This document shows positions 3,392 through 58,982 of a stretch of DNA of 64,000 nucleotides, in pieces. This DNA is from Bdellovibrio sp. NC01. GTDB taxonomy: Bacteria > Bdellovibrionota > Bdellovibrionia > Bdellovibrionales > Bdellovibrionaceae. Below the pieces are notes generated by a model. That model was not told where the DNA came from, did not search any database, and worked only from the letters and a program-made list of their open reading frames with translations. Positions within the stretch are counted from its first letter, which is position 1. Each line of letters opens with the position of its first letter. Both the position numbers and the translations under genes were made by a program. The stretch spans positions 2,604,001 through 2,668,000 of the forward strand of contig NZ_CP030034.1 of the NCBI RefSeq assembly GCF_006874625.1. Reading direction: 5' to 3'.

Positions 3392-4990
3392 ATGAACGGT
3401 ATCTTATTGAAGATCGCTGTAGCGACAGCTTTCACTTCAACGGCTTCTGCTCAAGACCTCACTCCACAAGCTTTCTTTAATCGTTGTTATGTTCAGTTGA
3501 CTGGTAAACCAGTTCCTCTCAATCACGCATTGATGAAAAAAGTTATCGCCGGTCAAACGACGGCGCAAAGTGCATGCAGTGAGGTTCTACGCAAAGGCTT
3601 GCTTGCGAAATCTGGAGCATTAAACACGCCAGGCGATACTGAAAGTAAGGCCGTACTGAATACGTTCTATACGTTCCACCGCACGTGGTTCCCTACTAAC
3701 AATATCAATTCGATTTCGGGTTATTCCTCTGGCGAACAAAACGGCACAGCCGATCTTTATGATGCCTCAGAGCCCGCTCTTGCTGTTACTTATTCCGTAT
3801 TTGGTGTGGGTCAGAAATACTCTGACGTCTTAAACCGTACTACTGGTGTTCATGCCATGCGTTCTGAAGATGCGGCGGTCGCTGCCCGTATGAAATGGGT
3901 GGCTTCTCATCCAGGTCGTTTCATTAGAAATGATGCAGCTCAATCAACGTCGATGTTTTCGTTCCGTGAACCGTCTTCTGTAAATACGACGATCAGTCGT
4001 AACATCAACAAGCATCTTTCAACGAAAATTAAAATGCCACAAATCGAAGTGGGCACGCTGATTGGTATTCGTCCGACGACGGAGTCTGTGATGGTGCCAA
4101 ACATTTCACTCACTCCATTAGGTAGTGCCGCGACTGATAAAGGTTCGTATGCCGCTGGCAAATTGAATTATTCGTATGACTTCTTTAAACCGTTTGGTGG
4201 CGGTGTGCTTGGTTCCCCGATCTATGTTTTGCAAAACTTAGGTCACGGTTACAATATGAAGTTCAACGGCCAAACAAAAGTGGCGCGTCGTTGGTCACAA
4301 GCAAACATGAATACATTCTTGTGTGCGAGCCTACCCGCTTTGCGTGAAGCTGACGTTAAAAGTTTTGTAAGCACAACATCAACTGCTCCGTTTAGAAATT
4401 CCACTAGCTGCGTGATGTGCCATGCGACTTTAGATCCCATGGCTTACACGGCCCGTAACATCACTGTCGGTGCGACAGATATTTTCTTACCTAATAAAGA
4501 CGGCGATGACACCCGCGATGCAGCTGGTAAATTAATCGCCGCGCCACTTGCTTATGTCAGAACGGCTGTGGCAGTGACGACTTACAAACCCTTAAATGCG
4601 TCTGTCAGCGGCTGGCCGACAGAACCTGTGACGGATTTCCATTTGCAAAAACCAACGGGTCGTTTGTTCTTCCGTTCCTTCACAGGCGCTCTTGTTGATA
4701 AGTCCGTCGCTGATATGGCAGGCCTTGGTAAAGCGATGTCCGAAACGGATGACTACTACTTGTGTGCAGCGAAAAGATATTTCGAGTTTATGACTGGGAT
4801 TTCCGTGCCGTTGTACGATCGCACCGATCCACGCAACGCAGACATGAATAAGTCACTGACTGCGAATGACATTGCCGATCGAAACTTTATTGATGATCTG
4901 GCAAGCAAACTGCGCAGCACAGGTTCGGTGATCACGTTACTTGAAGATATTATGGCTTCTGATTACTACAAAAAAGAAAACTACAGATAA
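3392..4990 (+). CDS. Exported CxxCH protein, first gene of DUF1501-type operon
   Basis: This 532-residue secreted protein has a signal peptide ending at STASAQ and one heme c-type motif, CVMCH, at residues 340-344 followed by LDPMA. Its layout resembles the DUF1592/DUF1588/DUF1585 proteins, which pair with DUF1501 or DUF1552 proteins: a helical N-terminal repeat with regularly placed cysteines, the CxxCH followed by LDP, and a C-terminal CAAKRYFEFMTG...LLEDIMASDYYKK segment like DUF1585. The next gene is indeed DUF1501-like. The ATG follows a GGGGGAA ribosome site. The three genes 3392-7415 have gaps of only 8-12 bases, so they form an operon. The biochemical role of such pairs is not established; family assignment is by motif pattern only. 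Confidence 0.65.
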   Translation: MNGILLKIAVATAFTSTASAQDLTPQAFFNRCYVQLTGKPVPLNHALMKKVIAGQTTAQSACSEVLRKGLLAKSGALNTPGDTESKAVLNTFYTFHRTWFPTNNINSISGYSSGEQNGTADLYDASEPALAVTYSVFGVGQKYSDVLNRTTGVHAMRSEDAAVAARMKWVASHPGRFIRNDAAQSTSMFSFREPSSVNTTISRNINKHLSTKIKMPQIEVGTLIGIRPTTESVMVPNISLTPLGSAATDKGSYAAGKLNYSYDFFKPFGGGVLGSPIYVLQNLGHGYNMKFNGQTKVARRWSQANMNTFLCASLPALREADVKSFVSTTSTAPFRNSTSCVMCHATLDPMAYTARNITVGATDIFLPNKDGDDTRDAAGKLIAAPLAYVRTAVAVTTYKPLNASVSGWPTEPVTDFHLQKPTGRLFFRSFTGALVDKSVADMAGLGKAMSETDDYYLCAAKRYFEFMTGISVPLYDRTDPRNADMNKSLTANDIADRNFIDDLASKLRSTGSVITLLEDIMASDYYKKENYR

Positions 4991-5002
4991 GGAGTTTCGA
5001 AA

Positions 5003-6688
5003 ATGTGTGATAGTCCAAAGAAAACACAAATGAATCGTCGAAACTTCCTTGGCAGTGCCCTGACAATCGGTGCCGGAACTTTTTTGTTCGATCCATTTCG
5101 TGCATTGACAGAAGGCATTGTCGACAATTTGATTTTGCAAGCTCACGCGGAAACGACAGGTACGCAAGGCAGTCGTAACTATGTGAATATTCAAATGTCA
5201 GGCGCACCTATTCGCTACCAATTTGACCAATGGTTAAGAACAGCGTCCAGTGACCCTGCCCTTGCCACAGTGTCGTCGACGAAAATGGTCAATCCGATGA
5301 TCTGTAACGCATTCGAATGGAATTCATCAGGTGTGGCGACGCCGATTTATAAGACCACGACTTATCGTGGCATCATCGTTCCCATTTTATTTAGTCAAAA
5401 CGTTTACAATTCCAAAGGACAAAAACGTCCGTTAACGGATCTTTTGAATCACATGCTTGTGGTTCGTGGCTTCGGTTCGGGTCTTGATGGTCATCAATTC
5501 AATATGTTGATGCAGCAACAACCGATCGGCGGTGTCGCAACGATCAACGCAGTCAGTGCTGAAAGTAACAAAATGACTTTCGATGCCATTCAGTGGCCTG
5601 ATCGCGGCGGTAATAGCTCTTTCGTATCGCCGTCAGGAAAAGCGCAAAGTAAATTAACGGGCTCGACTCCCCTGTCAGCTTTGATGGAAGGTTTTGCAGC
5701 ACCGGGAAACAAAGGCGCTTCCAATCTGAAGGCGAACTATAAAGATGCGATGGAGTTGGCGCAAGCACGCTTGAAAGCTTACTCACGCTCTGAAAACTCG
5801 GGGGCGAAAATCGTGGGTCAGAATCTGACGAACGCGACCGAAATGATGAAAAAAGGCGTGTCGAATTTAACAAGCTATTGGGCGGCAGCAGTTCCACGTT
5901 ATAAAGCTGCGATTGAATCTTCGGTTCGCGAATCCAATCTTGCATACATCAGCGACAAAGTTTTGAAATCGTCTGAAAGTGCGCAATGGGCTGTCGGCAC
6001 TGGCGACATTCTTAAAATTAGCAAAGAATTTGACGTTCGCACTGCCATTGAAAATGCAACGATTCAGAATCTTGCAGAAAGCTTGGCGCTTGCCGAATAT
6101 ATTTTGAAAGAAGGCTTAGCGGCTTCCATCGATGTGCGTTCTGATTCTTTGAATGGTCTTATGCTTCGTGGTGTTGGTGAAACAGCAGCCACAGCACGAA
6201 ATTTAGGTCTTGATATGCATGCAACAGGCTCACCGATGGTGGTGCTTCTTGCAACAGCCTACTATCGCGGTTTGACTGCGGGTATTTTGGAATTGATGGA
6301 TCAGTTGGGCCCAACTATCTGGGAAAACACCGTGGTGCAAGTTCAAGGTGACTTCGGTCGCACCGGCCGCACGAATGGCACTGGCAGTGACCACGGTTAC
6401 AATCAGATGGTGACATCTGCATTCTCTGGCGCATTCAACAATGGTCCGATCGTTGTTGGTAATATCTCTTTGAACGGCCCGGGTACTAATTACGAAGGTA
6501 CGCAAGGTGTGGGCGCTGCGATCAGTGGCTACAATCAAAAAGGTATTCCGACTCCGACAATGGCGGCTTCGACTGTGACAACTCTTTTAGGTGTTGATCA
6601 CAATCCGTTCACGAACACGGCGGCTTCGCTTGTGAATTTATCGGGTGGCCAATTAAAAGCACTCGCAACACCGAAGATTGTGACTTAG
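5003..6688 (+). CDS. Tat-exported DUF1501-like protein
   Basis: The 561-residue product begins with a twin-arginine signal (NRRNFLGSALTIGAG), so it is exported folded, probably with a metal or cofactor. Near the C-terminus the FGRTGRTNG...GSDHGYNQ stretch (about 450-470) matches the hallmark of DUF1501 proteins, which have a sulfatase/alkaline phosphatase-like fold. The middle region is helical and Ala-rich. It is the second gene of the operon, 12 bases after the CxxCH gene. Pairing of a DUF1501 protein with a cytochrome-like partner is a recurring arrangement in environmental bacteria, with no settled function. The start has an AAGGAG site; a later ATG (MNRRNF, residue 11) is also possible. 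Confidence 0.7.
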   Translation: MCDSPKKTQMNRRNFLGSALTIGAGTFLFDPFRALTEGIVDNLILQAHAETTGTQGSRNYVNIQMSGAPIRYQFDQWLRTASSDPALATVSSTKMVNPMICNAFEWNSSGVATPIYKTTTYRGIIVPILFSQNVYNSKGQKRPLTDLLNHMLVVRGFGSGLDGHQFNMLMQQQPIGGVATINAVSAESNKMTFDAIQWPDRGGNSSFVSPSGKAQSKLTGSTPLSALMEGFAAPGNKGASNLKANYKDAMELAQARLKAYSRSENSGAKIVGQNLTNATEMMKKGVSNLTSYWAAAVPRYKAAIESSVRESNLAYISDKVLKSSESAQWAVGTGDILKISKEFDVRTAIENATIQNLAESLALAEYILKEGLAASIDVRSDSLNGLMLRGVGETAATARNLGLDMHATGSPMVVLLATAYYRGLTAGILELMDQLGPTIWENTVVQVQGDFGRTGRTNGTGSDHGYNQMVTSAFSGAFNNGPIVVGNISLNGPGTNYEGTQGVGAAISGYNQKGIPTPTMAASTVTTLLGVDHNPFTNTAASLVNLSGGQLKALATPKIVT

Positions 6689-6698
6689 GAGATTGCTG

Positions 6699-7415
6699 AT
6701 GAAAAAAAGAATTTCCTTATCCGTTTTATTGTTACTTGGCGTAGTGACGACACAGTTCTATCAAAACTGTGCGCCGCTTGAACAAATGAATGATTTGGCG
6801 TCCATGAACTCGGCAAGTTCAGCGGACTCAGCCGCCGATGACACGGCTGTGGATTCTCCGGGTATTCACCCCGTCGAAGCTGCAACGAAAGTTTCAGCGC
6901 GCAAAGTACACGTTGTATCGAAAGATTATGTTGCAAGCATTTTCAGAGAAGTCTTTACGTCAACTGCAACACCCGTCACAAACCTTGATGCACTTATCGA
7001 TAAATGGGTGACGTTCAAAGGGGCACAGTTCGGCGGTTCGTGCGATATGTATTCAAGCTTTTCGACAAGAGATTGCAACGGTTCGATTTCGAACACAGAT
7101 CTTGGGTATTTTACTGACGACAATACTGTGCGCGAATCATTCCGTGTGCAAATGTGCGAAAACGTTTTAGGTGTGGATGCTGGTGTTTCAGCTGCACTTG
7201 AAAAAGTCAGTCTGACGATGGCGTCACCTATCAACCCAACGAATGTGGCGCTAGCTCACAGCTTGTTCTATCGTGGCAATCCGCCTGAAGAACTCACTGT
7301 GAATACGTTGATTGATTTAAACACGACTTTGACTGCTGCCAATGCGCCTTTAAAAGAGCGCTGGAGAGCCGTTTTAACCCAAGTTTGCGAATCCCCAGGC
7401 TGGCAGTTATTTTAG
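6699..7415 (+). CDS. YQNC-type lipoprotein, third gene of DUF1501 operon
   Basis: This lipoprotein of 238 residues has a hydrophobic N-terminus ending in TTQFYQNCAPL. The cysteine follows Asn rather than the usual Gly/Ala/Ser, like the lipoprotein at 1341. After a Ser/Ala-rich linker the mature part has several cysteines (GGSCDMY, RDCNG, VQMCEN, TQVCES). Its C-terminus (KERWRAVLTQVCESPGWQLF) resembles the last helix of DUF1585/DUF1800-type proteins. I start it at the ATG 6699, 7 bases after AGGAG; a TTG at 6693 is also in frame. Its position suggests it anchors or accompanies the two preceding exported proteins. No catalytic motif is seen. Confidence 0.65.
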   Translation: MKKRISLSVLLLLGVVTTQFYQNCAPLEQMNDLASMNSASSADSAADDTAVDSPGIHPVEAATKVSARKVHVVSKDYVASIFREVFTSTATPVTNLDALIDKWVTFKGAQFGGSCDMYSSFSTRDCNGSISNTDLGYFTDDNTVRESFRVQMCENVLGVDAGVSAALEKVSLTMASPINPTNVALAHSLFYRGNPPEELTVNTLIDLNTTLTAANAPLKERWRAVLTQVCESPGWQLF

Positions 7416-7504: not shown

Positions 7505-7532
7505 AAGAGCCCGTTTCGGGCTCTTTCTTTTT
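7505..7532 (+). terminator. Intrinsic terminator of the DUF1501 operon
   Basis: AAGAGCCCG (7505-7513) pairs with CGGGCTCTT (7517-7525) over a TTT loop and is followed by a T-rich run. This is a standard rho-independent terminator. Confidence 0.9.
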
Positions 7533-7613
7533 GGAATCTCCTTTGCTTAAAAGGCAAACCCCCAACCCCTGAAGACATGGAGTTGGGCGCACTTTATTCG
7601 TGGGAGATAGCCG

Positions 7614-9338
7614 ATGGTAGTACGTCGTTTAAACAAATCGACTTTATTACTTCCTTTGATGTTAACACTTCAAGGGTTCAATGCATTTGCGGGTGATGCA
7701 AATCCGCAGATTTCAAATCCTCATCTGCTATCCAAAGCGGTGCAGTTGCAAATCACTCCACGTGGAATGAAGTACTTCGACCAAAATCTTAGTAATATCC
7801 TGGGTAACATGGGTGTGAAGCTTGATGAAGGCTATTTCCCTGCAATGTCATGGAAAGCAGATAAGCCCATCAATCCTGACGATTATACTAAAGACAATCC
7901 AGAGATGGTTGCGACTTACAAACAAATCAAAGATATGTTGAGCACATGGCTTGTGGGTTTTTCTTTGAATCCGCACTTACCGACTGTGCAAATCGGTGAA
8001 TCTGGTTATGTGGCGCAATTTTCTAAATTCGGTTTAGTGACGGATGAAGCTTTGATGCGCCAATTAGGCAAACGAGATGGTGCCGTGCTTGCCATTGAAT
8101 TGGAAGTGAAGAAATTCACTCTTTCCTCTCAATCTATTATTGCGTGGGACTTAAATAATGAATTCCTAGGCAAAGCCGGTTTAGAAAACGTCACGCTTTC
8201 AATTGGTGACGGCACAACGCCACTCAAAATGCGTCTGCCATTTTATATTCGCATGAATGCCAGTGGCCAAATGGAATTCGAAGCGCTTGAACTTGAAAAC
8301 AACTTGGATCAAACAGCGATTGCTTTCCAATATCAAAAGCTAATCATTCCAACTTTCGCAGTGGAAGTGAACGGTAAGAAATTCTATTTGAACACGCAAG
8401 AAGTCGACAAGCTTTTGACGAAACAAGCTCCGCTGTTGATTGAAAAAGTTCGTTCAAATTTAGGTGAGCTGACTCGCAAAACTTTGCCAGAGATGTTGAA
8501 TCAAAAGGCCAAAGAGTTTTTGGCTGGTAACTTGGAGCAGATCCAAGACATGTCGCCTCCGGGTAAAGAAGCCAACGACAACCGCCCTGATTTTAAATGG
8601 GGCTTGCGTCTACAAAACATTAATTTGAATAAATCTCTGAATGTGGATGTGACGGCGTACGTAGAAGATACTTTGAACTCCAAAAGTGCTCCGCGCGCGA
8701 TTGATAAATCACGTGGTGACGTTGCTTTGAATCTTCTGCCAATGGAGCAATATGACATCGCTTTGAGCCTGGATCGCTCGGTGATCAACCGTGTTTTGCA
8801 ATTATCTTTTGAGAGAAAGAACTTCGAAAAAATCGAAAATGGCGGCGATGTCATGAAGTTGGTAGCCATGCCGACGATTGACTATGTAAAACCTCTAACG
8901 GACGTGGCTTTGAAACCACAAGAAACGTTCGTAAAACTGCACGTTTCCATCGAAAACAAGCCAGATTCAACGTTCTTGAAAGAGACGATTGTTTTGGACT
9001 TCGATATCGTTGCAAAACTAGCGCAAATGAAGGATAAGGACGGCCTGCAACTCATCCTTTACAAAATCGATGAAAACACGATGACGATGGATGAGAAATA
9101 CCTTTCTACAGCCGGGAAACTTTTGAACGGCATCTGGAGAGGTAAAGTCTATGCTGGCATCCGCGAAGAACTTAAAAAGAAATGTGCGACTTGGGCCACG
9201 ACTCAAGCAAACATTCCTGGTTCGTTGCCATTGCCACCGGAAGTTTTGGGCATGAAGCTCGACATCAATCGCCTGTTGATGGATTCCACGGGTCACTTAG
9301 TGATGTACTTGAATTACGCGAAAACAGGAGCGAAATAA
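7614..9338 (+). CDS. BPI/LBP-like (TULIP) exported lipid-binding protein
   Basis: This 574-residue protein with a signal peptide (ending at FNAFAG) appears to be a two-domain relative of bactericidal/permeability-increasing protein. I compared it by eye with remembered BPI. The N-terminal VQLQITPRGMKYFDQNLSNI resembles the opening helix of BPI. A helix-rich segment near 275-330 matches the end of barrel 1. Then YDIALSLDRSVINRVLQLSF matches the start of the C-terminal barrel, and SLPLPPEVLGMKLDINRLLM plus a terminal strand matches the end of BPI. Such folds bind lipid acyl chains or LPS in a tubular groove. The start has a GGGAGA site. It is followed after 1 base by another exported gene. The fold is inferred; the ligand is unknown. 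Confidence 0.55.
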   Translation: MVVRRLNKSTLLLPLMLTLQGFNAFAGDANPQISNPHLLSKAVQLQITPRGMKYFDQNLSNILGNMGVKLDEGYFPAMSWKADKPINPDDYTKDNPEMVATYKQIKDMLSTWLVGFSLNPHLPTVQIGESGYVAQFSKFGLVTDEALMRQLGKRDGAVLAIELEVKKFTLSSQSIIAWDLNNEFLGKAGLENVTLSIGDGTTPLKMRLPFYIRMNASGQMEFEALELENNLDQTAIAFQYQKLIIPTFAVEVNGKKFYLNTQEVDKLLTKQAPLLIEKVRSNLGELTRKTLPEMLNQKAKEFLAGNLEQIQDMSPPGKEANDNRPDFKWGLRLQNINLNKSLNVDVTAYVEDTLNSKSAPRAIDKSRGDVALNLLPMEQYDIALSLDRSVINRVLQLSFERKNFEKIENGGDVMKLVAMPTIDYVKPLTDVALKPQETFVKLHVSIENKPDSTFLKETIVLDFDIVAKLAQMKDKDGLQLILYKIDENTMTMDEKYLSTAGKLLNGIWRGKVYAGIREELKKKCATWATTQANIPGSLPLPPEVLGMKLDINRLLMDSTGHLVMYLNYAKTGAK

Positions 9339-9339
9339 A

Positions 9340-9852
9340 ATGAGATCCCTCAAACTCATTATCATCAATGCACTTACTTTAATCATCGGCTTGGGTCTGA
9401 TGAGTGGTTCAGTTTCGCAAAGAAACGCAGAAGCAGCACGCTTCGAAACTATTCCTTCAATCCAAGTGAATCGCCTTGGTAACTTGCGCGGTCAGTACCT
9501 TACAGTTTTATATGCCGTAGGTTCACGTCCGTTCATTTCTACAGACGCTTCACAAATCAACATCTCGCAAGTGAAAGAGTCGCGCACGGTGTACGTGACT
9601 TCAGACGCTGTGACATTGCCAGCAGTCCAAGTTGAAAAAGAAGGTTTCCGTCCTTCTTACAACATCGTGGTCTTCGTGGTTTCACCTCAATCGAATTATT
9701 CTTGGGTGAATGCTGACGGTTCAGTACCACAAGGTATCTCTGCAACAGGCAATCACATGAGCAGCAGCATTAGCAGCATCAACAAAACTGATGTTGATAG
9801 CTTCATCACTGCTCAAGGCGAAAACGCTGTCTTGAATGTTAACTTGAACTAG
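9340..9852 (+). CDS. Exported protein of unknown function
   Basis: This 170-residue protein has a long hydrophobic N-terminus (residues 8-24) that is a signal peptide or anchor, then a mostly beta-rich domain without cysteines. I recognise no family. Its ATG lies one base after the stop of the BPI-like gene, so the two are surely co-transcribed and may act together. The stop codon overlaps that of the converging amine oxidase: the four bases CTAG at 9849-9852 serve both genes. Confidence 0.6.
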   Translation: MRSLKLIIINALTLIIGLGLMSGSVSQRNAEAARFETIPSIQVNRLGNLRGQYLTVLYAVGSRPFISTDASQINISQVKESRTVYVTSDAVTLPAVQVEKEGFRPSYNIVVFVVSPQSNYSWVNADGSVPQGISATGNHMSSSISSINKTDVDSFITAQGENAVLNVNLN

Positions 9853-20021: not shown

Positions 20022-21911
20022 TTATGACTTAACTAGGTTCTGTGTCCATTGTTGGATCATAGCCAGAGTTCCTTGACGAGCATTGGCAAATTGGACGCCG
20101 TACGCTTGGTTTTGCTCGCTCCACACCACTTGACCTTGAACTTCGATCATCTCGTGTCCATCTGGGCTTGTGATGCGCATTGTGATGATGCCGCCTTTTT
20201 CCAACGCTTCTTCCGTGTTGAAAGACAGACCCCCTTGAGAGATCGTGTTCATAGATCCCACAAGCTCTTTATCACCAACCATCACACGGATTTGCGAACT
20301 CATACGGAAGCGCTCATGCTTACGTTGATGTTTCGGATCACGACGACGAAGGACAAACCATACAGCTAATGGTAAAGCCATTAAGCCCACCATCACACCT
20401 GCCATCGGTGTTGGACCTTGTCCATTACCCGGGCCATTGTGAATTGCTGTGGAGACCAAACCACAACCACCGGCACTTCCACCAGAATCACTTGCGACAC
20501 CACGAAGTTGTGCTTTGTATTCCGGTTGATAAGAAGACACGGTTGCAACGGCATTTTTTGCATCGACAATCAACGCGTTCGCATTAATACGACCGCTTGT
20601 TGAAACTAAACCGTTATATGAACTGCGCACATCGACACTGTTCATCACGGCTTGTTTGAGCTGATAACCTGTCATGTTCGGCGCTTCACGTAAAGCCATC
20701 GCTGCCATACCGGCAACAAATGGTGCCGCCATACTTGTTCCATCCATATAACCATAAACGTCGCCAGGCAAAGTACTAAAGATACGCTCGCCCGGACTTG
20801 CAACGTGAACAAGGTTTGCACCGTAATTCGAAAAGTTTGAAAGAGTATCGTACTGTGAAGCCGAAGCCACTGCGATGTTACTTGGAACATCGTAGTTCGC
20901 GGGATACATCGGATAATCGCTTGAATCGTTATTCGTATGATAATTGCCAGCCGCTGTCACAATCAGTACTTGTTGATCGTAAGCGTAAGCCAAAGCCTCA
21001 TGCAATGAACGCGAATAGTTCGGTCCACCCCATGAGTTATTAATCACTTTTGCGCCGTTATTAACAGCGTAATAAATCGCATTGATCGCTGCCGCTGTCG
21101 TTCCTGAACCGTTTGCATCCAAGAATTTCAAAGGCATGATTTGAATTGGCGATTCCTGCAAAGGACGCGCAAACATATTCTGCGCAACACCCGCAATAAT
21201 ACCCGCGACGTGAGTACCGTGATCGTCATCATCCAAAAAGTTATTCGTGTTTGAAATAAAGTTCCAACCACTGACGTCATCGACATAACCGTTTTGGTCA
21301 TCATCCACGCCCGCTGTTCCGTTGTACTCGCGAGTGTTCACCCACAAGGCACCCGAACCACCATTGGCGACTGATTTAAAGAAAGTATGATTTTTATCAA
21401 GACCGGTATCAACGACTGCGACCACAACTTTATTTGTCGGACTTACAGGTGTGATTTGCGACCATGTCGAAGTCACGCCCACATTGATCGGAGCTTGGTG
21501 ATAGAGGTTGTCGTTTTGAGCAATATTGTTAGTGAGCACTTCATTATACGTGTACGAACTTTGGTAAACGTATAGCTGCGCATTATTCGAAGAACTTGCG
21601 TCATCAACTTTAGTGAAGATGTAGTTCGGCTCTACGAACTCAACATCTGGGTCATTTTTGATGTCTTCAAGATTCTGAGCCTCGCCCGCCTGAGCTTTTA
21701 ATGAAATATGGTACATGCCCATGCCGGCAAAAGCCTTCTGAACACTCGCCGATTTCATCGCAAGCTTGGTGCGCACCTTGGCAACGCTCGAACTTGATGA
21801 TGTTGATTTGTACTTTACGATGAATTCACCTGGAACGGCCTGCGCGCTCTGCGCCAATGAAGACGCAGGAGCTGTAATAGAGAATATAAGACCTATTAGA
21901 AACCGTTTCAC
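20022..21911 (-). CDS. Subtilisin-like protease fused to cytoplasmic PilZ domain
   Basis: This 629-residue protein joins three parts. A signal peptide (to SLAQ, residue 21) is followed by an I9-type propeptide (27-100, ending VEFVEPNYIF). The S8 protease domain (about 160-450) has Asp168 in VVDTGLD, His231 in HGTHVAG, an oxyanion Asn in NNSWGG (about 292) and Ser393 in DGTSMAAP. Then a Gly-rich linker (GGSAGGCGLV), a membrane helix (503-521) and RRR lead to a C-terminal PilZ-like domain (530-629). PilZ has RxxxR (Arg530, Arg534), but TISQGG replaces the usual D/N-x-S-x-x-G. Topology puts the protease outside and PilZ inside. GTG start with a GGAGAA site. Confidence 0.85.
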   Translation of the reverse strand: MKRFLIGLIFSITAPASSLAQSAQAVPGEFIVKYKSTSSSSSVAKVRTKLAMKSASVQKAFAGMGMYHISLKAQAGEAQNLEDIKNDPDVEFVEPNYIFTKVDDASSSNNAQLYVYQSSYTYNEVLTNNIAQNDNLYHQAPINVGVTSTWSQITPVSPTNKVVVAVVDTGLDKNHTFFKSVANGGSGALWVNTREYNGTAGVDDDQNGYVDDVSGWNFISNTNNFLDDDDHGTHVAGIIAGVAQNMFARPLQESPIQIMPLKFLDANGSGTTAAAINAIYYAVNNGAKVINNSWGGPNYSRSLHEALAYAYDQQVLIVTAAGNYHTNNDSSDYPMYPANYDVPSNIAVASASQYDTLSNFSNYGANLVHVASPGERIFSTLPGDVYGYMDGTSMAAPFVAGMAAMALREAPNMTGYQLKQAVMNSVDVRSSYNGLVSTSGRINANALIVDAKNAVATVSSYQPEYKAQLRGVASDSGGSAGGCGLVSTAIHNGPGNGQGPTPMAGVMVGLMALPLAVWFVLRRRDPKHQRKHERFRMSSQIRVMVGDKELVGSMNTISQGGLSFNTEEALEKGGIITMRITSPDGHEMIEVQGQVVWSEQNQAYGVQFANARQGTLAMIQQWTQNLVKS

Positions 21912-27890: not shown

Positions 27891-30800
27891 GTGAAAACTT
27901 GTACGTCTCTTGTATCCATTCTGGTTTTTCTATTCTGTTCGCTATCCTTAGCGTCGCCGAACTCTTTTAACTATCAAGGTCGTATCTTAAAAACGGATGG
28001 CACTCCGCTAGAGTACGCTCACGTCAGTTTTCTTTTCGAGATCACCAATCCAACTGGAACTTGCGTAATCTATCGAGAGCAAGTGGATGACGTAAACATG
28101 GTGAATTCAAAGGGTGTCTTTGACGTTCCGATCGGTACAGGAACAAAGCTTTTCCCCGCTGACCCGACCTTTAAACTTTTAGATGCCTTCAAAAATTCAA
28201 CGGTTCAAAATTGTTCGGGAGGCTCGACTTACACGGCAGCCTCGGGTGACACACGTTTATTAAAAGTGCAATTTCATGACGGCATTGGTTGGAAAATCAT
28301 TTCACCATCCAGCGAAATTCGTTCGGTGCCTTTTGCAGCTTATTCACTTTCTGCCGAAACATTGGGTGATAAAAGTGCTTCCGATTTTATTTTAAAAACA
28401 GGCGTGCCGACTTGTGCCGCCAATGAGTTTTTAAGCTGGAATGGTTCGGCCCTTTATTGTTCGCCGGTCAGTGGTGCAAGTGGTGGGACCGTGACCAATG
28501 TCAGTTCCGCGAACGGCTATGTCACAATCACAAATAATACGTCCACGCCCCTTGTGACTTTGAATGTCGGTACAACTTCAGGAACGGTGGCGGCTGGTGA
28601 TGATGCGCGCTTTACAAATGCGCGCACTCCAACGGGTTCTGCTGGCGGAGATTTAAGTGGCACTTATCCCAATCCAACTTTAGCAAACACAACGGTCAGT
28701 GCTGGCAGCTATGGCTCTGCAACTCAGGTCGGAACTTTTACAGTCGATGCCAAAGGCCGCCTGACATCCGCATCCAACACGGCGATTACATTTCCAGTCA
28801 CTTCAGTTGCAGGAAAAACTGGTGCGGTGACACTTGATTATGGCGACATCAACAGTGCTGCTTCAAAATATCTGACTTACAAACCAAACAATGTCGCGTG
28901 TGCAGATGGCCAAGTGATGAAATGGGTCGCGGCAAGTTCACGCTGGGATTGTGCGAATGATACTGACACCAATGCAGGCGGCACGGTTACGAATATCGCG
29001 ACCGGCACTGGTTTAAATGGTGGTCCGATCACAACCACGGGAACTATTTCTTTGGCAAATACGGCAGTCACTGCGGGCTCTTACACACGAGCTAATATCA
29101 CTGTCGATGCGCAAGGCCGCTTAACCTCCGCAAGCAATGGTGCCGCTGTAAACTTAGCCAGTGAAATCACGGGAACTTTGCCCATCGCAAATGGGGGCAC
29201 AGGACAAACAACTGCAACATCGGCCTTCAACTCTCTTTCTCCACTAACGACAAAGGGCGATGTCATCGCGTTTGATGGTTCGAACAATATTCGTGTGCCT
29301 GTTGGATCTAATGGCCAAGTTCTTTCGGCGAACTCAGCTCAAGCGTCAGGTTTACAATGGATCACTCCAACAAATGGCACCGTAACAAATGTCACGGGCA
29401 CAGCTCCGATCGTTGTTGCGACGGGATCAACGACGCCAGCTATTTCGATTAACGATGCGACGACATCTACGAAAGGTGCTGTTCAAGTGGGTGCAGGTCT
29501 TACGGTGTCTTCAGGAACGATTTCTGCAGATCCGACAAATTTCCCTGCGACTGTACCGGTGGCTAAAGGTGGTACGGGTACAACATCCTTCACCGCAGAT
29601 CGTATGATTGTTTCTAATGGAACGGGTTCAGCCTTGACTACATTCAACTGTGGTGTGGGTCAATTGATCACGTTCAATGCCTCGGGTGTGATGGGATGTA
29701 CAAACTATTCAGCGTCTGGTGTTTTTGCAAACGGCGGCAATAGTTTTGGTGCTGATGGATCCATCGGAACAAATGATGCATTTGGATTGAATATCGAAAC
29801 GAACAATACAACTCGTATGTATGTTAATTCATCGGGCAATATTGGGATGGGGACGTTGACGCCAAGCTATCCTCTTTCCGTCTATCGCCCGTCCGCTAGT
29901 TCGACCGTGAATATCGAAAGTGGTAGCAACGGTTTAGCGGCACAAACTCGATATGCGGGATTGACCGCTGCAGCTGCAGCACAAGTCTATGGAACTGGCG
30001 TTAATTTATCGAATGGCAATGGCGGTTATGAACTCTACGACTACACCGCAAGTGCCAGCAGAGTTTACGTCGGCACCGGTGGTCACGTTGGTATCGGAAC
30101 AAATTCACCCACTTCGCGTTTAACGGTGCAAGGAGCAAGCGGCTCGCAAGCACTTATGCAAATTCAAAATGGTGATTTCGTAAATGGCACTACCGGCTCT
30201 GGTGCTTACCTCGGCACAACGAGTGGCACTGGTAGCGTCAGCTCCATGGTTCAGGCATTTATCGGTGGTAACGTCACTGCGGCTCCATTTTTAATCAACC
30301 CATTTTCAGGCAACGTCGGTGTCAATGTGGGCATTGGTACAACTGTCGACAAACCGCTGGTTGTGAATGGTGATGTCGCAGTTGGCGTCACTAAATCTGC
30401 GGGCGTGCAAGGCTACGGAAATGCATTGTGGTTCCGCGGTGTCGAATCAAGTACCGACGAAGTGTGGGCTTCAAAATTCGTGAATGCCACGGATCAAACA
30501 TATCTACGCGTCAACATCGGCGATGAAGGCAGTGACTACTTTGTCTTGGGCTACTCTGTTGGTGGGGCTCCGGGTGGTGCGTGGACGAATGCCTTTTATG
30601 TCAAAATGGATGGTAACGGTTGGATGGCTGGTACACTCGGTCAGGCCTCAGACAGACGCCTTAAAAAGAACATTCAACCGATCGAAAATTCACTTGAAAA
30701 AATTCTGCGCATTGAAGGTGTGACATATAACTGGATTGATCCACACAAACCAGAAAAACAAATCGGTGTGATCGCACAAGAGGTTGAAAAAGTTTTTCCT

Positions 30801-31052
30801 GAAGCCGTGGCTGAAAACGTCGATGGCTATAAATCAGTGGCTTATCAAAACTTGGTGGCGCCGATTATTAATTCGATTAAAGAGCTTTATGCTTTGATGA
30901 CGTCAGAAAATCAAAAACAAGATCGCGAGATTGCTTCATTGAAGTCTAACAACGCGGCTTTAAACTCGAAAGTTGAAAGCCTTGAAAAACAAAACCAAGC
31001 GCTTAAAGAATCATTATGTCAGATGAATCCGAAAGCGAATGTCTGCAAATAA
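27891..31052 (+). CDS. Surface fibre protein with peptidase S74 chaperone domain
   Basis: This 1053-residue exported protein looks like a phage-type trimeric fibre. The signal peptide ends at SLSLAS. A globular N-terminal part (about 25-190) is followed by long Gly/Thr/Ser-rich beta repeats, including several tail-fibre-like units such as [13 protein letters not shown] and [12 protein letters not shown]. The C-terminus (about 930-1025) is an S74 intramolecular chaperone: [20 protein letters not shown] and [16 protein letters not shown], with the self-cleavage Ser-Asp at its start. A coiled coil ends the protein. Chimeric fibre proteins of this design are known in Bdellovibrio and implicated in prey recognition. 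GTG start with no ribosome site, perhaps leaderless. Confidence 0.85.
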
Positions 31053-46443: not shown

Positions 46444-49400
46444 TTAGACAAGACTTTCTTCGATTTCTTTTTGTGAAATTTCATGTGGCTTGCGAATTGA
46501 TTTCACCGTACCAGCAGAAATCTCAACGATTTGGTCACAGTCAGCAATCGTTCCCAAACGATGGGCGATAATCAACATTGTGACGCCACTGAACGCTTCG
46601 CGGATGACTTTTTGAAGAATGGCATCCGTTTGTACGTCCACACTGGCTGTCGCTTCGTCCATCACGATAACTTTTGCTTCTGTCAAAAGTGCGCGCGCTA
46701 AACACAACAACTGTCTTTGACCTTGGCTTAAATTCAAACCGCCTTCAGTCACAACAGAATTCAACGATTGTGGAAGAGTGTCTACGAACTCCCACATCGA
46801 TGCGTGTTTCAACGCCGTGATCACTTCACCGTCCGTATATTCATTGTAGCGATCCAAGTTATTGCGGATCGTACCCATGAATAAAGTCGGATCTTGCGGA
46901 ATGATCGCAAGACTGCGGCGCAATCGCTCCAACGGAACACCTGCGATATTCACGCTATCAATAGCAATACTTCCTTGTTCAGCCTCAACGAAGCGGAACA
47001 ATGATTGGAAGAAAGTACTTTTACCAGAACCGGTTCTGCCAATGATACCAACTCGTGTCCCCGCTTGAACTTTGAAAGTGATACCTTTCAAAACCAACGG
47101 TAAGTGCGTGGCATAGCGCACTTGCAGATCTTGCACTTCGATTTCACCTTTTTCCGGCCATGTTTCACTCAGTGGCTGCGGCAATGAAATCAAGGTGTCT
47201 TTTTCCGCTGGCAAATTCGCAAAGAACTTCAAACGTTCGATGGAAGTCATGCGCGATTCGATATCAGCAAAAATTCTGACACCCCAATTTAGGAATGCCC
47301 AGAATGACAACGAATACATCGTCACCAAACCTGCAGTCCCCGCCTGGATCAAACCGTAATGTGCTGACAACGTCACACCAATGGCGGTTGCAACCGAAAT
47401 CAAACCACCGACCATCGGGATGCGCGAAGAAAACCAACGGTTCAACATATAGTGCGAAAAAAACATACGCTGTGAGTGCGCAAGCTTTTCGTAAAAGTTC
47501 TGCAAGAACCAATCACTCTTGTTGAAGCCACGAATCACCGCAAGGCCCTGCAAACTTTCCTTAAAGTGAGCATAACGAGGTGAACGCGCAATACTGTCCA
47601 AACGTTTTACTTCACGTGCAGGTCTACGATAGTCACGTTGAAGCAAGTAATACATGAACATCACTGGTGCGATCACTAACGCCATATACGGCATCACACC
47701 CAAGATCAAAATCAACGACGCTAAAACTTGCATCGCACAGTTGACCGCGGAACTAAAGCTCCATTGCAGATACACGTCGACCGATTCAATGTCGCGTGAA
47801 AAGCGTTGCAAGATACGACCCACCGGAGTCGAGTCAAAGAAACGTACTGGCGCCTTCAAAACGCTCTTCAACATTTTATCATGCATGTCTTTACCGGCTT
47901 GGATACCACGGCTTAGCCAGAACAAGTTATCAAGTAAGCTTGCAAGCAAAACGATGACACCCAAAACACCGTAAATCCCTACAGCAGTTAAAGCCACCCA
48001 TTCACTTTGATGACTTGAATAATATGACAACCACCACTTTTGCAAAAGCGGCAGTGCCGTCACAGCAACTGCGCCCAAGAATAATAATGACAAAATAATT
48101 GGATTCCATGTCGGATGATCCCCGCCCAAAGAGCGAATGTAATCCCAATACACTGATCCTTTAACAGCGCCCACTTCGCGGTCTTCGTCTTCAGTGACAC
48201 GCGATTCATTCAGTTCAGGTGCTGCCGTCGTTTCCGCAACCGGAGCATGAACTTCGGCCGCTTGATGCTCAGCTTCACCTTGTGTTTTGCCGTGCTCTGA
48301 ATAGAATTCGACAAATTCAGGACAGCTTGCCTTTAGATCTGCGAACGTGCCTTTGCCTTTGATCTCGCCGTCTTCTAGATAGATCACTTGATCGAAGGCA
48401 TTCAAATGTTCCAGACGATGAGTCACAACAATACGCGTTTTGTCTTTCCATGCGCCAAAAATCAGACGTTGCACTAACAAGTTTTCAGTTTCAGCGTCGA
48501 CTGCCGACAATGGATCATCTAACAACACCACTTGCGGATTTGATAAAAACGCACGCGCTAAAGCGACACGTTGTTTTTGACCGCCGGAAAGATTCACACC
48601 TTTTTCGCCGATCTCGGTACGCAGTCCTGCTTTCCACTCTTTTAAGTCTTTATCTAAGCAGGCGTTGTGAAGTGCACGGCGCAGCTCTTCACCGCTCACG
48701 TCTTCACCGAATTTTAAGTTTTCAAGCAACGACGCATTGACGATGTACGCTTCTTGCGGAACGTAGGCTGTCTTGGGACGAAGTGCATTGGACTCCAAAC
48801 CCGAATACGTGATGCTGCCCGCAGAACTTGTGATTTCGCCAAGCAACGTATGAATCAAAGAGCTTTTGCCAGAACCAACGGGTCCGACGATCGCCAAAGA
48901 TTTTCCCGGCGCCACTGTGAAGTTCAAATCTTTCAACACAGGCGTTGCCGCATTTTCATACGACACTGTCAAATGCTCAACATGGACACCCGTTGCGCGA
49001 CCTGAAGTATCGACTTGGCCTTTTTTCTCTGACACTTCTTCTTGTTGAAGGAATGCCAAAATACGACGAGCACCGACAAGGGCTTGGGTATAGCGTGAAA
49101 TCAGTCGTGAAAGCTCGCCGAAGGGACCTTCAAGCAATCCAAACAACGAAATACACGTAAAGATCAATGCGGCATCCAGTTTTTCCCCGCGCCAGGCATG
49201 GGTCGCCAGGGCCACGAACAATACAAATGTCGAAACACCTAAGTAGCCTAGCGACGAATAAGTTTCAGCGCGCGCCAAATGACGACGTGCCGACAATTCT
49301 TTTTCACGCACTTCGTTCACTTCTTTCGCGACACTTTTTTCCCACGCGAAGTATTTCACAACACGGATCGCACCCAACGCCTGGGTCATCAACGTCACGC

Positions 49401-50136
49401 GGTGATCACGTTGTTTCATCATCTCGTCATCAAGACGCGTGAAGGCCTTGCCGATGAACTTCGTCAACGGTGCCAGTGTCAATAAAACGACAACGGCCGC
49501 AATCGTCGACAGACCGATATAATAGAACAGCATTCCCACGATCGCGATAATCATGAAGAAGGCATAAAAAATCTCGGCCATGATCAATGCGATATCGGCG
49601 ACGGATTCACTATCACTGCCCATGTAGTTCACAATGTCGCCCAATTGATTTTTTTGGCGGGCTTGCAGACTCAGTTTTAAGCTGTGACGGAAAATCTTTT
49701 CATTCAGCAAGTTTGTGACAAGCTGATACGTGCGAAGTGTGCGCGCGAAATAATGTTGAATCGCGAAACCAGATAAGAAACCGCAAATTCCCAGCAAAAC
49801 GCCATAGAATAATGTCTCTTTAAGATTTGCTTCCGTAACTCCGGAAGAAATCAATCCGACAAAGCGATGCACAAGCACCGGTGTACAAAGCGAAAACAAG
49901 GCGCTGGCCGTATACCAAAGATAAGCCGGCACCGCGAGTTTTCGAGCTGCAAAAATCAACGAATAAAGATGCTTCTGCGCCGACTGCCAATTGATCTTTG
50001 CAAGATCTAAAGTTGTCGTGCGCGGATCAAGATCCGGTGGTAAAGGAAGCAAGTCCGTTTCATCAATGATCTTGTGCTTCGCTTTTTGCACAAGCGGACT
50101 GACTTCTGTAAAGAACAAACGTCTAAAAAAATTCAT
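46444..50136 (-). CDS. Full-length ABCC-type ABC exporter (two halves fused)
   Basis: This 1230-residue exporter carries both halves in one chain, as MRP/ABCC proteins of eukaryotes do. The first membrane domain (about 55-330) precedes NBD1 with Walker A GPVGSGKSS, signature LSGGQKQR and Walker B VVLLDDPLSAVD, whose Asp replaces the catalytic Glu. A linker with acidic and Ala-rich sequence follows (about 620-690). The second membrane domain precedes NBD2 with GRTGSGKST, a modified signature LSQGQRQLLCLARALL and complete VIVMDEATASVD. One ATP site is thus degenerate. It resembles the split pair at 11991/13762 domain by domain. A 21-codon ORF precedes it. Substrate unknown; exporters of this class handle amphipathic anions or conjugates. 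Confidence 0.92.
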   Translation of the reverse strand: MNFFRRLFFTEVSPLVQKAKHKIIDETDLLPLPPDLDPRTTTLDLAKINWQSAQKHLYSLIFAARKLAVPAYLWYTASALFSLCTPVLVHRFVGLISSGVTEANLKETLFYGVLLGICGFLSGFAIQHYFARTLRTYQLVTNLLNEKIFRHSLKLSLQARQKNQLGDIVNYMGSDSESVADIALIMAEIFYAFFMIIAIVGMLFYYIGLSTIAAVVVLLTLAPLTKFIGKAFTRLDDEMMKQRDHRVTLMTQALGAIRVVKYFAWEKSVAKEVNEVREKELSARRHLARAETYSSLGYLGVSTFVLFVALATHAWRGEKLDAALIFTCISLFGLLEGPFGELSRLISRYTQALVGARRILAFLQQEEVSEKKGQVDTSGRATGVHVEHLTVSYENAATPVLKDLNFTVAPGKSLAIVGPVGSGKSSLIHTLLGEITSSAGSITYSGLESNALRPKTAYVPQEAYIVNASLLENLKFGEDVSGEELRRALHNACLDKDLKEWKAGLRTEIGEKGVNLSGGQKQRVALARAFLSNPQVVLLDDPLSAVDAETENLLVQRLIFGAWKDKTRIVVTHRLEHLNAFDQVIYLEDGEIKGKGTFADLKASCPEFVEFYSEHGKTQGEAEHQAAEVHAPVAETTAAPELNESRVTEDEDREVGAVKGSVYWDYIRSLGGDHPTWNPIILSLLFLGAVAVTALPLLQKWWLSYYSSHQSEWVALTAVGIYGVLGVIVLLASLLDNLFWLSRGIQAGKDMHDKMLKSVLKAPVRFFDSTPVGRILQRFSRDIESVDVYLQWSFSSAVNCAMQVLASLILILGVMPYMALVIAPVMFMYYLLQRDYRRPAREVKRLDSIARSPRYAHFKESLQGLAVIRGFNKSDWFLQNFYEKLAHSQRMFFSHYMLNRWFSSRIPMVGGLISVATAIGVTLSAHYGLIQAGTAGLVTMYSLSFWAFLNWGVRIFADIESRMTSIERLKFFANLPAEKDTLISLPQPLSETWPEKGEIEVQDLQVRYATHLPLVLKGITFKVQAGTRVGIIGRTGSGKSTFFQSLFRFVEAEQGSIAIDSVNIAGVPLERLRRSLAIIPQDPTLFMGTIRNNLDRYNEYTDGEVITALKHASMWEFVDTLPQSLNSVVTEGGLNLSQGQRQLLCLARALLTEAKVIVMDEATASVDVQTDAILQKVIREAFSGVTMLIIAHRLGTIADCDQIVEISAGTVKSIRKPHEISQKEIEESLV

Positions 50137-56710: not shown

Positions 56711-56862
56711 ACATTTTATTTCTGATGATCCCCATGGCCCTGCTTCTGGGAGTTGGCTTTGTCTCGGCCTTCCTGTGGGCGACATCCAAAGGTCAATTTG
56801 ATGACCTCGAGACTCCTGCACACCGAATTTTAAAAGATGAAAACGAAAGGAACAAATCGTGA
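56707..56862 (+). CDS. ccoS: Cbb3 oxidase maturation protein CcoS
   Basis: This short gene encodes 51 residues. It starts MNILFLMIPMALLLG and continues through one membrane helix into WATSKGQFDDLETPAHRIL, the clear CcoS signature. It is required for correct insertion of heme and copper in the oxidase. The start lies at the ATGA overlap with ccoI and the stop overlaps the GTG of ccoNO (GTGA), so all three are translationally coupled. Confidence 0.92.
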   Translation: MNILFLMIPMALLLGVGFVSAFLWATSKGQFDDLETPAHRILKDENERNKS

Positions 56863-58982
56863 ACACATCGAACTCTGTCATCGAAAAAATATTTTACGAT
56901 GACGACATTGTTAAGAAATTCACCCTGGCTACCATGATCTGGGCCGCCGCTGCATTTATCTTCGGATTACTGGCAGCTTTACAATTGGCTTATTGGCCGA
57001 TGAACGCGAATCTTGAATGGATTACCTTCGGTCGCCTTCGCCCGCTTCATACAAATGCGGCGATCTTTGCTTTTGCAGGGAATGCGATCTTTGCGGGTAT
57101 TTACCACTCGTCGCAACGCTTGTTGAAAACGCGCATGTTTTCGGACTTGCTTTCTAAAATGCATTTCTGGGGTTGGCAGTTAATTATCTTATCTGCCGCA
57201 ATCACTTTGCCATTAGGATATTCGCAAGCAAAAGAATATGCTGAACTTGAATGGCCGATCGACATTGCCATTGCCGTGGTATGGGTGATCTTTGCGATCA
57301 ACTTCTTTGGAACAATTCGCAAACGTCGTGAAAAACACATGTACGTTGCGATCTGGTTCTATATCGCAACGATTATCACAGTCGCAGTTTTGCACATTGT
57401 AAACTCTATCGAAATTCCTGTTGGCTTCATGAGATCTTATCCAGTGTACGCCGGCATCCAGGATGCCCTGGTGCAATGGTGGTATGGTCATAATGCCGTT
57501 GCCTTCTTCTTGACGACTCCTTTCTTGGGATTGATGTACTACTATGTACCAAAAGCAGCGAACAGACCGGTGTATTCGTATCGCTTGTCGATTGTGCACT
57601 TTTGGTCATTAGTATTTATCTATATCTGGGCTGGTCCCCATCACTTGCTTTACACTTCTTTGCCAGAATGGGCACAAACTCTGGGCATGGTTTTCTCGAT
57701 CATGTTGTGGGCACCGTCTTGGGGTGGCATGATCAATGGTCTTTTGACGTTGAAAGGTTCTTGGCACCTTCTTCGTACAGAGCCGTTAATTAAATTCTTC
57801 GTAGCCGCTTTGACTTTCTATGGTATGGCGACTTTTGAAGGCCCCCTTCTTTCCATCAAATCAGTTTCAGCACTGGGTCACTATACAGACTGGATTATCG
57901 GTCACGTTCATTCGGGCGCGCTTGGTTGGAATGGTTTCCTTACTTTCGGTATGATCTATTATCTTGTACCAAAATTGTGGAACACACAGTTGTACTCTAA
58001 AAAATTATTAGAGAATCACTTCTGGATCGGTTTGACCGGTGTGCTTCTTTATTACATCTCGATGGTAACTGCCGGCATCACTCAAGGTTTGATGTGGAGA
58101 GCCGTCAATAAAGATGGCACTTTGATGTATCCTGATTTTATCGAAACAGTGGTGCGTATCGTGCCATTGTACTGGGTGCGTGCTTTAGGTGGATTGTTAT
58201 TCATCGTGGGTTTTGCGTTGATGTGTTACAACATCTACAAAACAATCAAACTTGCTCCGAAAGAACAAAAAGCTGTTGCTCAAGAAGTTGTGCGCAGTGG
58301 TTATGATGAAGTTTCTAAAGAAAGCCATCGCAATCTTGAAGGCATGGGTTTGACTTTCTCGGTTTTGGCATTCCTTGCGATTGCAGTGGGTTCTGTGATT
58401 GAGATCTATCCAACACTGTCGTTGCATAAATATATTACGCCAGCCAATATCGTGGACCCTTACACTCCCCTTGAGCTTGCGGGTCGCAGTATCTATATCA
58501 AAGAAGGCTGTTACGTCTGTCACTCGCAGCAGATTCGTCCGATTGTTTCTGAAGTTCTTCGTTACGGTAAAGCTTCGACAATTGAAGAGTCTATGTACGA
58601 TCATCCCTTCCAATGGGGTTCGAAACGTACAGGCCCGGACTTGTCTCGCTTGGGTAAGAAATATCCAAATCTATGGCACTTAAGTCACATGATGGACCCC
58701 CGCGCGGTGACTCCGAAATCAATTATGCCGAACTATCCGTGGTTGGCTGAAAAAGACACAGACTTCTTGGTCCTTCGAAAAGATCTGTCTGTGATGAAAA
58801 CTTTAGGCGTTCCTTACGGTGACGAGATCGTCGCGAATGCAGATATTCACGCACAAAAACAAGCTAAAGAAATTGCCGCCGATCTAGAAAAAAATGGCGG
58901 ACCAAAAGGTCTTGAGAAAAAAGAAATCGTCGCTTTGATCGCCTACCTTCAATCGTTAGGTCAGAAAGGAAAAGCACAATGA
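56859..58982 (+). CDS. ccoNO: Fused cbb3 oxidase subunits CcoN-CcoO
   Basis: This 707-residue protein joins the catalytic subunit CcoN (about 1-475) to the cytochrome subunit CcoO (about 490-707). Heme and copper ligands are visible: His in LRPLHTNAAIFAF, HNAVAFFLTTPF, GPHHLLYTSLPEWAQ, and GHVHSGALGWNGF near residue 350. The CcoO part has one membrane helix and the heme c site CYVCHSQQ (about 551) with an axial methionine likely in SIMPNYPW. Fusion of N and O is known from Bdellovibrio and some Bacteroidetes. GTG start with an AAAGGA site. It reduces oxygen at high affinity. Confidence 0.95.
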   Translation: MNTSNSVIEKIFYDDDIVKKFTLATMIWAAAAFIFGLLAALQLAYWPMNANLEWITFGRLRPLHTNAAIFAFAGNAIFAGIYHSSQRLLKTRMFSDLLSKMHFWGWQLIILSAAITLPLGYSQAKEYAELEWPIDIAIAVVWVIFAINFFGTIRKRREKHMYVAIWFYIATIITVAVLHIVNSIEIPVGFMRSYPVYAGIQDALVQWWYGHNAVAFFLTTPFLGLMYYYVPKAANRPVYSYRLSIVHFWSLVFIYIWAGPHHLLYTSLPEWAQTLGMVFSIMLWAPSWGGMINGLLTLKGSWHLLRTEPLIKFFVAALTFYGMATFEGPLLSIKSVSALGHYTDWIIGHVHSGALGWNGFLTFGMIYYLVPKLWNTQLYSKKLLENHFWIGLTGVLLYYISMVTAGITQGLMWRAVNKDGTLMYPDFIETVVRIVPLYWVRALGGLLFIVGFALMCYNIYKTIKLAPKEQKAVAQEVVRSGYDEVSKESHRNLEGMGLTFSVLAFLAIAVGSVIEIYPTLSLHKYITPANIVDPYTPLELAGRSIYIKEGCYVCHSQQIRPIVSEVLRYGKASTIEESMYDHPFQWGSKRTGPDLSRLGKKYPNLWHLSHMMDPRAVTPKSIMPNYPWLAEKDTDFLVLRKDLSVMKTLGVPYGDEIVANADIHAQKQAKEIAADLEKNGGPKGLEKKEIVALIAYLQSLGQKGKAQ

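Follow-up and report, generated by a model that had tools for sequence, protein, structure and literature searches.

The window, a stretch of 64,000 nucleotides of the Bdellovibrio sp. NC01 genome, contains on its forward strand an open reading frame at positions 7614–9338 (ATG to TAA) encoding a protein of 574 aa with a predicted two-domain TULIP-like fold. The original prediction had placed a gene of an exported, BPI-like protein at exactly these positions, and the signal peptide together with the full-length conservation throughout the family confirmed that the gene is real. A sequence resembling a ribosome-binding site, GGGAGA (7602–7607), is located 6 nt 5' of the ATG. Export of the protein, which had also been proposed, is predicted from a signal peptide read by eye (residues 1–26, 7614–7691) that ends near AFA/G. 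No lipobox pattern was found in this protein, and the pattern is present in three of the 47 family members. The mature part comprises a putative N-terminal barrel (residues 27–260, 7692–8393), modelled with low to middling confidence, a long helix closing the N-terminal domain (model residues 235–277, 8394–8522, according to the secondary structure of the model), and a putative C-terminal barrel (residues 331–568, 8604–9317), delimited by the alignment and the model, with a conserved ending after LPLPP.

On the same strand, a terminator-like hairpin with a 9-pair stem followed by TCTTTTT (7505–7525) is found where such a site would be expected and divides the upstream gene 6693–7415 from the TULIP cassette. 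Taken alone, the terminator-like sites give weak support, since four were observed versus 2.8 expected in shuffled sequences. Three consecutive genes of the forward strand lie upstream (3392–7415); one of them matches PSD2/DUF1585 weakly, another matches DUF1501, and the remaining one gave no hit in Pfam. These genes were rejected as a part of the system, because they do not recur beside the relatives of the TULIP gene and the terminator-like site intervenes.

The second gene of the cassette (9340–9852, forward strand) has its ATG one base past the TULIP stop codon and encodes a partner protein of 170 aa, predicted to be exported and beta-rich. The sequence AGGAG (9327–9331, forward strand) lies within the last TULIP codons, 8 nt 5' of the partner ATG. 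About 33 N-terminal residues (9340–9438) were identified by eye as a signal peptide or an N-terminal anchor.

The neighbourhood of the TULIP genes was analysed in fetched loci with flanks of about 1.5 kb (L001–L030) or up to 7 kb (the others), some of which end at contig ends; the open reading frames were given the longest start, and some overlaps are therefore too large. An iterative profile search of these loci found the partner directly 3' of the TULIP gene in most of them. When neighbouring genes were clustered, the TULIP cluster covered 37 lineage labels and the partner 23, the next recurrent neighbour being an amine oxidase with seven lineage labels, all in the window's own family. Partner matches were detected in 63 of the 368 genomes of the phylum, and 62 of these 63 also carry the TULIP gene. 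The pair count, which took the leading 79 of the 115 genomes with a TULIP profile match and all partner matches, showed that 61 of 64 partner matches adjoin the TULIP gene, downstream and on the same strand. The exceptions to adjacency include genome G075, with the partner on a contig other than that of the TULIP gene, and G120, with a second piece on another contig. No partner was found in 17 of the 79 leading genomes, in several of which the contig ends at this place; the other 36 TULIP genomes, with weaker matches, gave no partner match (0/36). The Fisher test applied to this co-occurrence takes no account of the relatedness of the genomes. The conserved partner gene, which is absent from the original prediction, is the strongest clue to function.

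The third exception is a partner-like piece in genome G168 (locus L104, 4887–5327, forward strand), where no TULIP match is present. Its frame starts within the antisense of a neighbouring gene, and for this reason it looks like a relic left after loss of the cassette.

A single-sequence search detected the TULIP gene in all 24 genomes of the window's genus and relatives in 79 of the 368 phylum genomes; in the NC01 genome itself, the protein is the sole match to itself. With the family profile, relatives were found in 115 of the 368 genomes, the weaker matches corresponding to diverged relatives. Full-length relatives occur across the phylum at identities down to about 20%, and the alignment of the 47 family members is likewise full length, with D179, P246, D352, and N392 invariant. 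A scan of a genome collection that also returned relatives rested on genus-level motifs. According to the protein tree, the members from family f1 (14 rows) form one side of a branch with support of 100/99 and those from family f12 (18 rows) one side of a branch with support of 100/100; family f26 requires four changes on the tree, and the branches are long. The clean f1 and f12 branches, together with the presence of the gene in a part of the phylum, suggest that the TULIP cassette is old in the phylum, vertically inherited, and repeatedly lost. A recent transfer or a mobile origin was rejected, since no relatives were found in the plasmids, phages, and viral contigs searched and the tree groups the sequences by family. 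The gene pair is absent from many phylum genomes, so its function is dispensable in some of them. One genus of the window's own family (g17, 13 genomes, G173–G185) gave no TULIP match by profile; the epibiotic predator Pseudobdellovibrio exovorus may belong to this genus.

TULIP-like genes in tandem or in neighbouring positions were observed in three loci, L059 (4743–8395), L050 (4485–8623), and L106 (3563–7152). In L050, the partner gene is located between two TULIP-like genes. The TULIP genes of L059 (a tandem pair) and L106 (a more diverged pair) have no detected partner.

The original prediction rested on an alignment by eye with BPI and had named comparison with BPI/TULIP profiles as a check. 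This comparison gave no match above the cut-off. Neither the whole-family profile (up to E = 10) nor the profiles of the opening segment (20 of 47 family segments, residues 37–70) and of the segment from LPLPP to the end (16 of 46 segments, residues 530–570) found a BPI chain in the PDB, and phmmer of the 7614–9338 protein against the PDB and its NCBIfam search showed no link to BPI. The Pfam family PF01273 has no match in the protein and none in its own genome up to E 10. A single member of the 47 (L067) touches PF01273, with E = 0.16 and 12.1 bits versus a cut-off of 28.8; its residues 179–310 fall on profile positions 39–154, which is the right place in the N-terminal half. No Pfam family covers either the TULIP protein (47 members) or the partner. 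A weak DUF2785 match, seen in four of the 47 members and with E 0.0061 for the 7614–9338 protein, which is under the cut-off, was rejected as chance. Since the whole-family and segment profiles find no BPI chain, the alignment by eye is a good guess at the fold, without a significant sequence match.

Structure prediction, the other check named, gave a result in agreement with the proposed BPI/LBP/CETP-like two-barrel architecture, which is thus supported as a prediction by AlphaFold2, Foldseek, and VIA-align. The AlphaFold2 model of the mature TULIP protein was built from 10 sequences and has a mean pLDDT of 73.0 and a pTM of 0.60. Its C-terminal half is good (pLDDT mostly 80–93), and the N-terminal barrel is weak in places, with block values of 39–85; four ten-residue blocks of the model are below 50. 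The first five Foldseek matches in the PDB are CETP, BPI, LBP, BPI, and LBP (E from 4.5e-13 to 1.9e-11, probability 1.00). In VIA-align, the highest similarity was noted with BPI 1bp1 (Z 14.2, 388 residues aligned of the 456 of BPI, rmsd 7.1), followed by BPI 1ewf (Z 13.0), LBP (10.8), CETP (10.4), and YceB (3l6i_B, 8.2). The order of the segments relative to BPI, proposed from the alignment by eye, holds in the structural alignment (model 13–547 on BPI 1–456) and is not recovered as a sequence signal. A tubular domain with a sheet wrapped round a long helix, as in TULIP proteins, is seen in the model, with low confidence for the N-terminal barrel, and two such domains are arranged head to head in one chain, their relative placement being loose.

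It may be argued that the match to BPI is a generic one between beta-rich proteins and that the true fold is unrelated. The middling quality of the model, the Foldseek TM-scores of 0.33–0.42 to BPI, LBP, and CETP, and the lack of sequence support are consistent with such an explanation. However, the top five PDB entries all come from a single family and span the chain from end to end with its parts in order, and Foldseek ranks 6–21 are also TULIP-fold entries, those of the OrfX group and BPIFA1/SPLUNC1 coming after the top five. Moreover, each half separately aligns to single TULIP domains: model residues 347–546 alone to one TULIP domain of OrfX2, and residues about 43–279 alone to Takeout, juvenile-hormone-binding protein, and SMP (Z about 5–6.6). 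We consider an unrelated fold unlikely. The high rmsd and the low TM-scores leave the relative placement of the barrels unsettled, and a 10-sequence model with such TM-scores does not establish the geometry of the barrels or the continuity of a pocket. When the profiles of the two halves were compared, a score of 22.7 was obtained with the corresponding strands and the next helix aligned; this score was reached by four of 100 block-shuffled controls, and an internal duplication of the halves is only suggested by the sequences.

As for the partner, its modelled portion starts at position 9439, and the structure, built from 8 sequences, is a predicted small beta-rich domain with a pLDDT of 75.6. 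A sequence search against the PDB found nothing beyond four weak ORC1 rows (E about 0.5), and Foldseek gave no match for the partner model at E 0.001. The best VIA-align Z was 4.9, the rows lying mostly over residues 1–90.

The pairing raises another explanation, namely, that the TULIP-fold protein is a scaffold holding proteins rather than lipids, similar to OrfX/P47 proteins. In the OrfX/P47 group, a two-domain TULIP protein likewise pairs with a small protein, and the PDB titles show OrfX3 solved in complex with OrfX1. OrfX1–OrfX3 and P47 are indeed among the fold matches of the model (8fbd_B, Z 7.0; 8bgm_B, Z 6.7; 6ekt, Z 6.6), and the partner gene is nearly constant. Nevertheless, BPI, LBP, and CETP match far better (Z 10.4–14.2), and the partner model could not be matched confidently to any known fold, which makes a protein scaffold rather improbable. 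P47, OrfX2, and OrfX3 resemble the TULIP protein in being bacterial proteins with a two-domain TULIP fold, as found by a public fold search, but differ in their lower fold scores (Z about 6–7) and in the Clostridium neurotoxin-cluster context. Pfam searches up to E 1, in a library that may lack such a model, gave no match with a P47/OrfX name for the TULIP protein.

Comparison with other known families shows a similar combination of likeness and difference. The TULIP protein shares with BPI, LBP, and CETP (PF01273, PF02886) the predicted fold of the whole chain, two domains in the same order, and export, but it has no profile match above the cut-off, shows 8–12% identity in the fold alignments, is longer (574 versus about 456 residues), has an acidic N-terminal barrel without cysteine, and has a dedicated partner gene. 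YceB (DUF1439) is similarly a bacterial envelope TULIP protein with a fold match, but is single-domain, whereas the protein analysed here has two domains; DUF1439 has no match in the NC01 genome, with a positive E. coli control. The original prediction had held that full-length two-barrel TULIP proteins are known mainly from eukaryotes. Levine 2019 (PMC6791001) already describes a full-length pseudodimeric TULIP protein in bacteria, DUF4403 (PF14356). DUF4403 proteins are likewise bacterial, with two TULIP domains per chain, and the family has no match in the 7614–9338 protein or in 10 distant relatives, none above the cut-off in the 368 phylum genomes (0/368), and none in the NC01 genome at E 0.001. 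Separation by profile from DUF4403, DUF1439, and PF01273 is the reason to place the TULIP protein, with its predicted TULIP-like fold and conserved partner gene, in a putative new family that stands beside DUF4403 and outside the BPI family; this status is defined by these three comparisons. According to the lipocone paper (PMC12419801), TULIP-bearing ClaspCone-1 and two-gene CapCone-2 systems are present in Bdellovibrionota, and the pair might be one of them. A search of the literature on Bdellovibrio with TULIP or BPI found no report of the TULIP protein among the articles listed.

The mature TULIP protein has a pI of 6.27 and one cysteine. The charge of its N-terminal barrel, counted over the whole domain, is acidic (pI 5.29, 22 K+R versus 26 D+E), and this barrel has no cysteine. 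Among the 47 family members, the median pI is 6.4, and a pI > 8.5 is found in 10. Killing by BPI depends on a cationic N-terminal tip, and the N-terminal domain of BPI has a disulfide; neither the disulfide nor a cationic charge, as judged over the whole domain, was found in the N-terminal barrel of the TULIP protein. Judging by these residues, BPI's antibacterial chemistry is unsupported, and the charge and cysteine content favour carriage over BPI-type killing. The same data bear on the possibility that an exported LPS-binding protein acts on the outer membrane of prey, in attack or inside the prey periplasm. This possibility agrees with a fold nearest to BPI, LBP, and CETP, with the occurrence of the gene in all sequenced members considered of a predatory genus, and with predicted export. 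At the same time, the protein is not cationic, and its vertical inheritance through the phylum with patchy presence argues against such a role, which we consider unlikely.

Taken together, it is reasonably probable that the 7614–9338 protein is a Sec-exported soluble two-barrel TULIP lipid carrier with the 9340–9852 protein as its dedicated partner. The conserved gene pair and its inheritance are consistent with this reading; the lack of profile homology above the cut-off to any TULIP family counts against it. Lipid binding by each barrel and carriage between membranes are deduced from the fold family. The protein would work like CETP and LBP in a general sense, with its barrels placed head to head and a lipid pocket in each. 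It would take up a lipid at one membrane and deliver it to another across the aqueous periplasm, or across that of the prey. The partner, most likely a beta-sandwich, would bind the carrier and either determine where it docks or keep the pocket closed. We would favour envelope housekeeping, with the predator's own lipid as the cargo, over the handling of prey lipid.

A more specific version of the carrier reading is that the pair serves Bdellovibrionota as a lipid shuttle in place of the soluble carrier MlaC and would move phospholipid or prey-derived lipid between the outer membrane and MCE machines during growth inside prey. The NC01 genome has six matches to the MCE (MlaD) domain and no MlaC match, the E. 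coli and Caulobacter controls being positive. MCE matches without MlaC or DUF1439 leave room for a different soluble carrier. Several MCE proteins elsewhere function without a carrier, so this pattern is a lead only, and the specific version has little probability.

Two-barrel TULIP proteins are textbook lipid carriers of animals, and the proteins described here may constitute a separate bacterial family of the same predicted architecture in the phylum that holds the best-studied bacterial predators. What is new is the conserved small partner, predicted to be exported and beta-structured, encoded directly downstream of the TULIP gene. The pair may serve as a small testable system for lipid choice and handover by bacterial TULIP proteins and is a candidate for lipid handling by a predator in a foreign periplasm.

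Several other genes of the window were noted for the domains of their products. The gene at 20022–21911 (reverse strand) encodes a subtilase, its N-terminus resembling a propeptide, fused to a PilZ domain at the C-terminus; PilZ is usually seen as a cyclic-di-GMP sensor. The 1053-aa product of 27891–31052 (forward strand) contains, near its end, a Peptidase_S74 domain (endosialidase chaperone), as in self-trimming fibre proteins. The 1230-aa product of 46444–50136 (reverse strand) contains two ABC transporter halves in a single chain. In 56859–58982 (forward strand), COX1 and FixO are found in one frame, and two subunits of a cbb3-type oxidase are apparently fused.
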